From an uncultured Kordia sp. (GTDB taxonomy: Bacteria > Bacteroidota > Bacteroidia > Flavobacteriales > Flavobacteriaceae), in assembly GCF_947489565.1 (NCBI RefSeq), contig NZ_CANLEA010000024.1, positions 1 through 64,000 on the forward strand: a stretch of DNA of 64,000 bases. The letters run 5' to 3'. The notes under the pieces are model-generated. The model searched no databases. It had not been told where the DNA came from and was given only the letters and a program-made list of their open reading frames with translations. The translations under genes were made by a program, and so were the position numbers. Positions 4,340 to 40,721 of the stretch are shown in pieces. Within the stretch, counting starts at the first letter, position 1; the number at the start of each line of letters is the position of its first letter.

Positions 4340-5983
4340 ATGACTGAGTTTATTAGAAAACGTACGGCAAATGCCAAGAATGATATTTTAAGTGGATTAA
4401 CAGTCGCGTTGGCATTAGTGCCAGAAGCGGTTGCCTTTGCCTTTGTAGCAGGTATTCCGCCAATGGTTGGTTTGTACGGAGCGTTTATGATGGGAATTAT
4501 CACTGCCATTTTTGGTGGACGTCCAGGAATGATTTCAGGTGCAACAGGCGCCATGGCAGTTGTAATGGTAGCTTTAGTTGCTAAAGGAAATGCGTTTGGA
4601 ATTGATGCTGGCATGGGCGAGCAAGGCTTGCAATTTTTGTTTATTACGTTGTTGATGGTTGGTGTTATTCAAGCAATGGCTGGAGCTTTTAAACTTGGAA
4701 AATTTGTTCGATTGATTCCGCATCCTGTGATGATGGGATTTGTAAATGGTTTGGCAATTGTGATTTTTATGTCGCAGTTAGAAATGTTCCCTCAAATAGC
4801 TCCAGAAGGAATATCTTTTTGGTCAAATATGGGCGAATGGTTTACTTCGCTATTCAATAATACAAGATTCTTACTGATGCTTGGTTTGGTAGGATTGACG
4901 ATGTTGATTATGTGGGGATTGCCAAAAATAACGAAGAAATTACCGGAAGCTTTGATTGCTATTATTGTGGTTTCTGCGATTGTTATTTTAGGAAATTTTG
5001 ATGATGTTGCTACCGTAAAATCATTTATTGTAGAAGGTAGTAATGGAGAAAGCACAGGTTTAAAAGGTGGTTTGCCACAATTTCAAACAGGTATATTTTC
5101 TGCTGAATTGTGGAGTTTGAAAAACCTGTTAGTCATGGCACCATATGCATTTATTTTAGCAGCCATTGGATTGATAGAATCATTAATGACTTTGAATTTA
5201 GTGGACGAATTGACAGAAACTCGTGGAAACGGAAACCGTGAATGTTTGGCTCAAGGTGGCGCGAATATTTTAAACGGACTTTTCGGTGGAATGGGAGGTT
5301 GCGCTATGATTGGACAATCAATCATTAACATAAAAGGTGGCGGACGCGGAAGACTTTCTGGAGTTGTTGCAGCGGTTGCATTATTATGTTTTATTCTTTT
5401 TGCTTCTGGATTGATAGAACAAGTACCAATTGCAGCGTTAGTTGGTGTAATGTTTATGGTAGTAATTGGAACCTTTGCTTGGAGTAGTTTTAGAATTTTA
5501 AACAAAATACCAATTAGTGATGCCATTGTATTAATTGCAGTTTCTTTAATTACGGTATGGAAAGATTTAGCTGTTGCAGTAATTGCAGGTGTAATTATTT
5601 CAGCCTTGGTATTTTCATGGGAAAATGCAAAACGCATTCGTGCACGCAAAAAAGTATTGGAAAATGGAACTAAAGTATACGAAATTTTTGGACCTTTATT
5701 CTTTGGAAGCATTCAAGCTTTCAATAGTAAATTTGATGTAAAAAATGATCCAGAAATAGTCGTGGTAGATTTTATGGAATCAAGAGTTTCAGACCATTCT
5801 GCATTGGAAGCTATTTTTAACTTAACACAAAAATACGAAGCAGTAGGAAAGCAATTGCGAATCAAACATTTAAGCGAAGATTGTAAAGCCTTAATGATTA
5901 AAGCTTCTCCTAAATTGGCAAATGTTATCGAAGATGCTGTAGATGATCCTCGATACTATGTCATGATGGATCTACAAAAATAA
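4340..5983 (+). CDS. SulP family inorganic anion transporter
   Basis: This 547-residue inner-membrane protein has the SulP layout: about 10-14 hydrophobic segments over residues 15-430, then a cytoplasmic STAS domain (about 440-547, with VVDFMESRVSDHSALEAI). The family signature region with GGRPGMISGATGAMAVV lies near residues 55-75. SulP proteins move sulfate, bicarbonate or other anions; the substrate cannot be told from sequence. No carbonic anhydrase gene lies next to it. It has its own promoter and is followed by the kinase cluster. Confidence 0.92.
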   Translation: MTEFIRKRTANAKNDILSGLTVALALVPEAVAFAFVAGIPPMVGLYGAFMMGIITAIFGGRPGMISGATGAMAVVMVALVAKGNAFGIDAGMGEQGLQFLFITLLMVGVIQAMAGAFKLGKFVRLIPHPVMMGFVNGLAIVIFMSQLEMFPQIAPEGISFWSNMGEWFTSLFNNTRFLLMLGLVGLTMLIMWGLPKITKKLPEALIAIIVVSAIVILGNFDDVATVKSFIVEGSNGESTGLKGGLPQFQTGIFSAELWSLKNLLVMAPYAFILAAIGLIESLMTLNLVDELTETRGNGNRECLAQGGANILNGLFGGMGGCAMIGQSIINIKGGGRGRLSGVVAAVALLCFILFASGLIEQVPIAALVGVMFMVVIGTFAWSSFRILNKIPISDAIVLIAVSLITVWKDLAVAVIAGVIISALVFSWENAKRIRARKKVLENGTKVYEIFGPLFFGSIQAFNSKFDVKNDPEIVVVDFMESRVSDHSALEAIFNLTQKYEAVGKQLRIKHLSEDCKALMIKASPKLANVIEDAVDDPRYYVMMDLQK

Positions 5984-38989: not shown

Positions 38990-40180
38990 ATGAAAAGAAG
39001 AGATTTTTTAAAACAAGCCTCCTTAGCAAGTACAGCGATGTTTTTGCCTAAATTTGTTTCAGGATTTAACCTGATTGATGACGCAATTGCAACTGGTAAA
39101 AAACTGGTGATTATTCAGCTTTCTGGAGGAAATGACGGTTTAAATACGGTCGTGCCTTTTAGAAATGATATCTATTATAAAAAACGTCCTTCGTTGGCAC
39201 AGCAAAAATCAAATTTGATTGGAATTACAGATGAAATTGGATTCCACGAAAGTCTCATCGCGCATAGCAATTTATACCATAACGGAGAACTCTGTGTCAT
39301 TAATAATGTTGGATATCCAAATCCGAATCGTTCACATTTTCGCGCTACAGATATTTGGCATACGGCAAGTGACGCAAACGAATATTTACAATCTGGTTGG
39401 ATCGGTCGCTATTTAGACATGACCAAAAGCAAATCTTTGGATGCTATTGAAGTTGATGATAGTTTGTCGTTAGTGATGAAAGGTGAAACTATGGATGGAA
39501 TTGCTACGAAGAATCCGCAATTATTTTACAGAACCACACACGATCCTTATTTTAAAAATGTAGTTTCTCATCATGACGATGCGCATTTGAGCGAACATAA
39601 TCTAGGATATTTATATAAAACCATGGTAACGGCTACTTCGTCTGCAAAATACATCTATGAAACATCTAAAACATATACTACAAATACAGAATATCCGAAG
39701 AATGAGTTTTCCAAGCAATTAAAGCAAGTCGCACAATTCATCAATTCAGGATTGCAAACGAAAGTTTATTACACATCACTTGGCGGATTTGATACACATG
39801 CCAATCAAATCAATAAACAAAAGCGTTTGTTAAAAATTTACGATGAAGCAATGGCGGCATTTATCAAAGATTTAAAGCAACAAGATACTTTTAAGGATAC
39901 ATTAATTTTGACTTTTTCAGAGTTTGGACGTCGTGTGCAACAAAATGCAGCTAATGGAACTGACCATGGAACAGCGAATCAAGTATTTGTCATAGGAAAA
40001 CAATTGAAAAAGCAGGGTTTTTACAATCCGATGGCAAATTTATCGAATTTAGATAACAATGGCGATTTAAAATATGATATTGACTTTCGAGAAATTTATA
40101 CGTCCGTGTTAAATAATTGGCTGGAAGTAGATGCCTCGAAAGTCATTAATAAGTCATTTGCTGGCGTGAATATTGTTTAA
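38990..40180 (+). CDS. DUF1501 domain protein, Tat-type signal
   Basis: This 396-residue protein starts MKRRDFLKQASLASTAMFLP, a twin-arginine-like export signal, so a folded product may be exported. DUF1501 marks include IIQLSGGNDGLNTVVP, SHFRATDIWHTAS, GWIGRYLD, GGFDTHANQ, and FSEFGRRVQQNAANGTDHG. The fold is related to alkaline phosphatase/sulfatase enzymes, but activity is unproven. It pairs with DUF1800 upstream and overlaps the convergent small precursor gene by four bases. Confidence 0.92.
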   Translation: MKRRDFLKQASLASTAMFLPKFVSGFNLIDDAIATGKKLVIIQLSGGNDGLNTVVPFRNDIYYKKRPSLAQQKSNLIGITDEIGFHESLIAHSNLYHNGELCVINNVGYPNPNRSHFRATDIWHTASDANEYLQSGWIGRYLDMTKSKSLDAIEVDDSLSLVMKGETMDGIATKNPQLFYRTTHDPYFKNVVSHHDDAHLSEHNLGYLYKTMVTATSSAKYIYETSKTYTTNTEYPKNEFSKQLKQVAQFINSGLQTKVYYTSLGGFDTHANQINKQKRLLKIYDEAMAAFIKDLKQQDTFKDTLILTFSEFGRRVQQNAANGTDHGTANQVFVIGKQLKKQGFYNPMANLSNLDNNGDLKYDIDFREIYTSVLNNWLEVDASKVINKSFAGVNIV

Positions 40181-40368
40181 ATGTCTCCGCATACAGGAAC
40201 TTCTCCAGATTGCGAAGTAGAAATACATGTACATGAAGGTGCATATGTGTCATTGTAACATATAATGCATGTGTCAATTCTACCAGATTCTTTTCCCCCT
40301 TTCGTATTTTTCAAATTGGAAATTGATGTTTTGTTTAGGTTAAAATTTTTAATATTTCTTTTTTTCAT
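40177..40368 (-). CDS. Putative lanthipeptide-type RiPP precursor 1
   Basis: This 63-residue peptide has a basic N-terminal leader (KKRNIKNFNLNKTSISNLKN) ending in Gly-Gly at 24-25, like the leaders of Bacteroidota class I lanthipeptide precursors (LNKxTIxxL pattern). The core after GG has five Cys (34, 37, 46, 48, 60) and ten Ser/Thr, suitable for thioether rings. It lies 15 bases downstream of a second small precursor on the same strand. No LanB, LanC, radical-SAM or peptidase-transporter gene is in the window, so modification would need enzymes elsewhere. The alternative is an unmodified Cys-rich secreted peptide. Confidence 0.65.
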   Translation of the reverse strand: MKKRNIKNFNLNKTSISNLKNTKGGKESGRIDTCIICYNDTYAPSCTCISTSQSGEVPVCGDI

Positions 40369-40383
40369 AACTTAAAATTTAAT

Positions 40384-40530
40384 TTACTTTCTAGCGCAAC
40401 ATTCAATTCTTGTTCCAGCACTACAATAGCTTATTTCTGAACCACCAGCCGCTAAACCGCCGCTAATTGTATCTAACTTAGAAATTACATTTTTTACAAG
40501 TTTGATTTTCTTTAAAGGTATTTTTTTCAT
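40384..40530 (-). CDS. Putative RiPP precursor 2 (48 aa)
   Basis: A short ORF from ATG at 40530 to TAA at 40384 encodes 48 residues. The leader is KKIPLKKIKLVKNVISKLDT, followed by ISGG with Gly-Gly at 24-25, exactly the same positions as in the neighbouring precursor. A second GG lies at 29-30. The core has three Cys (36, 44, 45) and a few Ser/Thr. Length, leader charge, GG position and tandem arrangement support a precursor peptide. It is unrelated in core sequence to precursor 1, so the pair could be a two-peptide product. Confidence 0.6.
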   Translation of the reverse strand: MKKIPLKKIKLVKNVISKLDTISGGLAAGGSEISYCSAGTRIECCARK

Positions 40531-40597
40531 GATCTTATAAATTTATAATTCATAACAATATAGAAAAGTAGTTTGAAACAATTGTAAGGTAAAACCG

Positions 40598-40605
40598 TAT
40601 TTTTG
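40598..40605 (+). promoter_or_regulatory. -7 promoter candidate for the thioredoxin-like pair
   Basis: TATTTTTG fits TAnnTTTG. TTTG at 40572-40575 lies 22 bases upstream, slightly wide. The leader to the ATG at 40722 would be about 110 bases. Confidence 0.35.
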
Positions 40606-40721
40606 ATTTGTATTTTCAATCATTTTAAAATGTAGCTATAGATTTTAAAATCTTAAAATTTGTTAAATAAAAAAGCTATCCGATAGAGTTTTAGTATTTT
40701 TAAGGATAATTATACGCTATC

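Follow-up and report, generated by a model that had tools for sequence, protein, structure and literature searches.

Two dispersed GG-leader peptides of Kordia as candidate precursors of a trans-acting class I lanthipeptide system

The P1/P2 precursor pair and its site

The window (the whole 64,000-nucleotide stretch that was analyzed) comprises positions 1-64000 of contig C24 in the 6.42-Mb, 100-contig assembly of an uncultured Kordia, referred to below as G000. On its minus strand, two tandem small open reading frames, P1 and P2, lie between a DUF1501 gene and a gene of the TlpA/redoxin type. The DUF1501 gene (38990-40180) is convergent and overlaps the P1 stop by four bases. The best relatives of the redoxin-like neighbor protein are from Kordia, with 91, 82 and 74% identity (among the best 80 loci). 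The pair comprises the following features.

40531..40721, minus strand: region upstream of P2, the expected promoter site; predicted from its position, with a start context that fits the family
40384..40530, minus strand: P2 precursor ORF (48 aa), which comes first in the presumed pair; leader-HMM score 32.8 bits
40456..40530, minus strand: P2 leader, 25 aa, IxLxKxxIxxL ... GG, from the leader alignment
40387..40455, minus strand: P2 core, 23 aa with three Cys, from the comparison of relatives' cores
40177..40368, minus strand: P1 precursor ORF, 63 aa; 39.4 bits to the leader HMM
40294..40368, minus strand: P1 leader, 25 aa, FxLxKxxIxxL ... GG, from the leader alignment
40180..40293, minus strand: P1 core, 38 aa with five Cys; a distant core relative lies in L034

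The two frames are as an earlier note on this DNA had described them: 63 and 48 residues, separated by 15 bases (40369-40383), with Gly-Gly at residues 24-25 of both peptides and with cores that contain Ser/Thr together with five Cys in P1 and three in P2. The leaders share an identical register (L11, K13, I16 and L19). Their central stretches, FNLNKTSISNL in P1 and IKLVKNVISKL in P2, correspond to LxLxKx5L with F or I in place of the first L. This motif, followed by GG and associated with a C39 protease, has been published for class I LanA leaders of Bacteroidetes (Walker et al. 2020, PMC7268733; this and the other papers cited by PMC number are represented here by extracts). The assignment of the leaders to the Bacteroidota class I lanthipeptide type is thereby supported, and the idea of a new precursor type, also raised earlier, is set aside because such a leader had already been described.

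Model searches were less informative. Neither P1 nor P2 matched NCBIfam or Pfam at E<=10, so that the comparison with RiPP precursor models suggested in the note gave no NCBIfam hit. NF038153 was unmatched by either peptide at this threshold, and seven sibling peptides scored 11.7-16.5 bits, under its 22-bit cut-off. TIGR04149 was likewise unmatched by P1 and P2, and one of the seven siblings was weakly alike (11.1 bits vs a cut-off of 25). We rejected an anti-phage role by family match, as P1 and P2 had no PADLOC match at E<=1.

We compared the site in relatives. Two other Kordia (G005 and G007) have a single P2-type peptide between the same DUF1501 and TlpA genes, and the G007 peptide is that of Kordia TARA_039 (L060). 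G010 has two P2-type peptides next to its TlpA gene, and the same peptides occur in K. zhangzhouensis (L061), where 12.7 kb contained no DUF1501 or DUF1800 match. In Kordia ALOHA (L059) the site is empty: 65 bases (5369-5433) separate the DUF1501 and TlpA genes, and no P2-type peptide was seen in this gap. The DUF1501 (92%) and redoxin-like (91%) proteins of L059 are the closest to those of the window among the named loci compared. The copy number at the site varies between species, and P1 has no orthologue there in the relatives compared. We therefore rejected the proposal that P1 and P2 form a two-component product, because other Kordia (G005, G007/L060 and G010/L061) have P2-type peptides but no P1 alongside, and the pair represents two members of a very large family.

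Conservation of Cys and Ser positions between species, which the note had named as a check, was found for P2. The pattern S-x-C-x2-G-[ST]-x3-CCA is common to the P2 core and four distinct peptides of relatives from three other Kordia. It was not found for P1, which has only a distant core relative in L034 of G001 (45% over 31 aa, E 5.6e-5 in a small core set) and weak likeness to L048, L037 and L038.

A large and dispersed leader family

Homologous GG-leader peptides, expected in relatives if P1 and P2 were genuine precursors, are abundant. Searching G000 itself with P1 by tblastn gave at least 125 matches at E<=10, from 150 scored candidates out of 160. At E<=1, we found 52-113 matches per genome in 11 out of 11 Kordia; the counts for G000 and G009 are lower bounds, as the best 150 candidates were scored in each. 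For a more sensitive model, 99 leaders were picked by regular expression, of which 68 were aligned, none of them from the lan locus described below. The resulting leader HMM has the consensus MKKxNLKxLxLNKxSISNLxxxxxxGG, and searches with it scored 56 and 21 of 310 candidates in G000, so that these counts are also lower bounds. Because both P1 and P2 are among the 68 aligned leaders, their own HMM scores are not independent; support that is independent of the HMM comes from the P1 tblastn matches in all 11 Kordia and from the P2-type peptides beside the TlpA-type gene in three other Kordia.

We scanned 1.557 Mb of G000 (24%), picked round matches and including the window, using stop-to-stop segments of at least 25 aa. 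Among 31,757 segments, 202 reached at least 15 bits. A residue-shuffled control of the same size gave seven segments at >=10 bits and none at >=12 bits. An ATG stands at the leader start in 198 of the 202 segments and is absent in four. We refer to these 198 as members, a lower bound for G000 because the DNA read was chosen round matches. GG is present in 186 members, 154 of which have a leader of 25-28 residues, and the median core length is 38 aa. A relaxed form of the motif fits 190 of the 198 members and the strict LxLxKx5L fits 120, figures that are partly circular because the HMM itself holds the motif.

Leaders are conserved and nearly Cys-free, and cores are variable. For the 186 GG members, Cys makes up 11.3% of core vs 0.06% of leader residues, and Ser+Thr 19.3% of the cores; across 740 long frames taken from this DNA, the corresponding values are 0.86% for Cys and 12.9% for Ser+Thr. 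Nearly all GG cores (183 of 186) contain both Cys and Ser/Thr. In one five-GG-peptide array (L193, G000 C7:95107-96362) the cores are nearly Cys-free, and three of its five peptides are the only Cys-less cores among the 186.

The members are spread over 115 sites on 32 contigs. Close neighbors usually share a strand (81 of 83), and many siblings resemble local duplicates. Only one of the 198 members lies in the lan-locus stretch. An unbiased count came from G006: we read 800 kb of its 5.48 Mb as 40 stretches of 20 kb at even spacing and found 29 members, in 11 of the stretches. This extrapolates to about 199 members per genome (bootstrap 95% 89-329). GG was present in 27 of the 29, and all 27 such cores had both Cys and Ser/Thr.

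Upstream of the members, TAnnTTTG was not enriched overall (29 of 198, vs a shuffled mean of 23.9 and maximum of 36). TAnnTT[TC] occurs 25-45 bases upstream of 82 of 167 members vs 209 of 718 other genes. The start context of members is uniform, with A at -12 (93%), A at -3 (89%) and T at -2 (80%), and first genes also have A at -13 and C or T at -1. The ATC directly before the P2 ATG (start at 40530) agrees with this context. We take the excess of upstream motif and start context as only a hint because the control starts are first ATGs and are partly wrong.

The lan locus of Kordia and the leader type in other genomes

Contig C24 carries none of the genome's matches to LanB (one), C39 (four), SPASM (four) or LanM-N (one), which bears out, for the families searched, the earlier remark that no enzyme lies near the pair. 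The sole LanB match is on contig C2, where LanB, LanC and a C39 exporter are found together; the search for lanB and lanC elsewhere in the genome, which the note had recommended, thus succeeded. Because the only LanB match lies on another contig, modification in trans, one of the options offered earlier, is the best explanation. LanB (PF04738) is present exactly once per genome in all 11 Kordia.

In G000, the gene order is a sigma-factor-like gene, a TPR gene, LanC, the LanB N-part, a separate LanB C-part, a TPR/AraC-type regulator, GG precursors, HlyD and C39-ABC. The domains over cut-off are PF05147 (LanC), PF04738 (LanB N-part), PF14028 (LanB C-part) and, for the exporter, PF03412 with ABC domains; the sigma-factor-like protein scores 23.7 with PF04542, slightly under the cut-off of 24. 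The whole-locus domain search covered G000, and the other ten genomes were judged by sequence likeness, which indicates the same gene order. Homologues of the sigma-factor-like, regulator and HlyD genes are present in all 11 loci (one sigma gene is cut by the end of its stretch), and in each of them a distance of 7.0-9.8 kb, measured edge to edge, separates lanB from a C39 gene.

The alignment of LanB with NisB (4wd9) has an E value of 3.5e-23, and that with 9g04 is stronger (E 1.7e-49); RxxxRxTPFGLF is kept. LanC aligns with NisC (2g02), with WCYG and CHG kept. We presume these to be catalytic or zinc-binding motifs. The exporter has a full-length match to PCAT1 (4ry2), over 2-728.

The lan locus has precursors of its own. 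Those of the KLxLxKSRIAEL type score 12.4-19.4 bits with the leader HMM (best per locus) in 10 of the 11 loci. The eleventh, in G003, showed none of this type and has one segment at 15.4 bits without a clear ATG start. A second type (KSLKLKKVKISRIGNPHILFGGA) has a different leader that scores about 4-12 bits; therefore, not all lan-locus precursors resemble P1 and P2, and the locus may prefer another tag than the dispersed leaders. In the lan loci of G006, G001, G005 and G007 (L145, L148, L150 and L151) the TPR/AraC-type regulator occurs twice, and in several of these a regulator copy is followed by a KSLKLKKVKISRIGNPHILFGGA-type precursor.

A separate RiPP-like locus of G000 (L255/L256, C5:255000-293000) has C39-ABC exporter genes, LanM-N (PF13575) and very large neighbors; its annotation is by sequence likeness, save the PF13575 and PF03412 matches. 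Small proteins there resemble nitrile-hydratase-leader peptides, as read by eye from the sequence.

Beyond Kordia, we compared the leader type with lanB in 397 genomes of the same taxonomic family. The leader HMM (E<=1e-3) gave 15 positive genomes, and lanB is present in 14 of these; the lone lanB-negative positive (G239) has a weak match in a 192-aa frame. Overall, 36 genomes carry lanB (in one of these, G285, only a fragment) and 22 of them are leader-negative. The co-occurrence has a Fisher p of 2.5e-15, or 2.8e-12 without the three Kordia. An initial sample of 149 genomes, which overlaps the 397 in part, gave four positives, all of them among its 15 lanB-positive genomes (p 6.9e-5); two matches of lower strength (E 0.004 and 0.009) were in lanB-negative genomes. 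We note that these p values are optimistic because related genomes are not independent.

A leader match lies within 10 kb of lanB in eight of the 11 non-Kordia lanB-positive positives (13 of the 48 matches listed). The flanks of seven fetched loci among these eight contain LanC-like frames in five, a LanB-C-like frame in one and a HlyD-like frame in one, as judged by motif and likeness. As leader matches adjoin lanB in other genera, the leader type belongs to class I clusters. Two genomes of genus g78, G087 and G297, have at least 10 and at least 18 leader matches, none of those listed being within 69 kb of the single lanB, which looks like a second dispersed library.

A candidate one-machine peptide library and its relation to known systems

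We consider it fairly likely that P1 and P2 belong to a set of about 200 dispersed precursors of a trans-acting class I lanthipeptide system in Kordia. The leader (MKKxNLKxLxLNKxSISNL, a spacer and GG) would be the recognition tag for the sole class I machinery, which would consist of the LanB N-part, the separate LanB C-part and LanC. In cores that differ widely, Ser/Thr residues would be dehydrated by these enzymes and then linked to Cys in thioether rings. Cleavage behind GG and secretion would fall to the C39-ABC exporter encoded next to lanB, acting with HlyD. As every site contributes a core of its own, the genome would be a library of cyclic peptides made by one machine. For the dispersed peptides, we infer that they are expressed, form rings, are cleaved and exported, and act as secreted antagonists or signals.

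Some observations count against this reading: NF038153 is not reached, P1, P2 and nearly all siblings are unlinked to lanB, 22 of the 36 lanB-positive genomes lack the leader, P1 has no orthologue at its site and three of 186 cores have no Cys. For P1 and P2 themselves, which neither reach the NF038153 cut-off nor lie near LanB, lanthipeptide-like function is putative, and we rate it as reasonably probable. We lean slightly toward the broader proposal that every Kordia has roughly 100-300 unlinked class I precursors, all of which are processed by one split LanB/LanC/C39-exporter locus, a system larger than the prochlorosins and independently evolved in a different phylum and enzyme class, with sites gained and lost while the machine stays single-copy.

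The dispersed peptides might instead be only cut and exported by C39-ABC, as disulfide-bonded, microcin-like products, with LanB and LanC serving the lan-locus precursors alone. A GG leader is all that C39 export requires of the dispersed members, the leaders that dominate in the lan locus are partly unlike those of the dispersed peptides, and the enrichment of cores in Cys (11.3% vs 0.86%) is greater than that in Ser+Thr (19.3% vs 12.9%). We nonetheless find this unlikely: the leader HMM tracks lanB across genomes although C39 genes also occur widely outside this group (8 of 14 control genomes), its matches adjoin lanC/lanB in other genera, and the leaders bear the published LanA motif in addition to GG.

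Modification by another maturase elsewhere in the genome (radical-SAM/SPASM, LanM or ATP-grasp) appears improbable, as judged from searches for SPASM and LanM-N. SPASM proteins occur in all 11 Kordia, at 1-7 each, but their number does not track family size (one in G009 vs at least 106 tblastn matches; seven in G003 vs 52). In favor of such a maturase, one of seven siblings is weakly like the rSAM-target leader TIGR04149 (11.1 of 25 bits), and part of the Kordia precursors have been classed as rSAM-modified (PMC11118758). As for the LanM locus of G000, we rejected it as an unlikely modifier because no leader-HMM match of >=10 bits lies in the 38 kb round the copy and LanM-N, present in 4 of 11 Kordia, is missing in the other seven. 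Finally, it is very improbable that P1 and P2 lack a working product and are mere remnants, decaying or selfish, of a family of spreading genes: despite the empty site in L059, a copy number at the site that differs between species and the many siblings that resemble local duplicates, the reading frames are unbroken, start contexts are uniform, only 4 of 202 segments lack the leader-start ATG, and the S, C, G and CCA of the P2 core are kept in three other Kordia.

If a single class I machine does accept about 200 unlike cores, the Kordia LanB and LanC would be an exceptionally tolerant ring-forming pair of use for peptide engineering. The question of why bacteria keep large one-enzyme peptide libraries would become testable in a second phylum. 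The leader HMM together with lanB is a simple marker for further libraries, as in G087 and G297.

Parts of this system have been described before. In K. algicida OT-1, a LanABC cluster with one named LanA was reported (Marsh et al. 2010, PMC3091789); compared by description, it is probably the same lan locus as here, and dispersed precursors are unmentioned in the extract of that report. Other work describes an antiSMASH lanthipeptide cluster in K. antarctica (PMC7477175) and a proteusin-like cluster in Kordia (PMC10734526). TrRiPP mining named Kordia as RiPP-rich and predicted as many as 176 precursors for one genome of Bacteroidota; its extract proposes neither a single trans-acting LanB/LanC/exporter nor a shared leader family (PMC11118758). 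The RiPP richness of Kordia is thus already known, and what seems new is the connection with a single lan locus: in the extracts of open-access literature, we found no paper that assigns dispersed precursors of Kordia or of Bacteroidota to one LanB.

Compared with the class I LanAs of Bacteroidetes, P1 and P2 have the same motif (with the first L replaced by F or I), the GG end, a Ser/Thr/Cys core and a C39 protease in the system (PMC7268733). However, those LanAs were taken within seven genes of LanC (PMC7268733), whereas P1, P2 and nearly all siblings are unlinked to lanB/lanC, and the cut-off of NF038153, the model for Bacteroidetes class I precursors, is not reached by P1 and P2. That LanC-adjacent mining overlooks dispersed precursors has been stated for the prochlorosins (PMC7268733). 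These products of ProcM in marine cyanobacteria are alike in that one synthetase serves many precursors, many of them encoded at a distance from it, with a common leader, unlike cores and GG cleavage (PMC12328550, PMC7268733). The same layout is found here, with one LanB, 198 members at 115 sites, a conserved leader and a variable core. The prochlorosins differ in using a class II LanM and Nif11-type leaders, with a quoted 29 precursors for ProcM (PMC12328550, PMC7268733), whereas Kordia has class I split LanB plus LanC, other leaders and a family several times as large. The Kordia system would thus combine a prochlorosin-like layout with class I chemistry.
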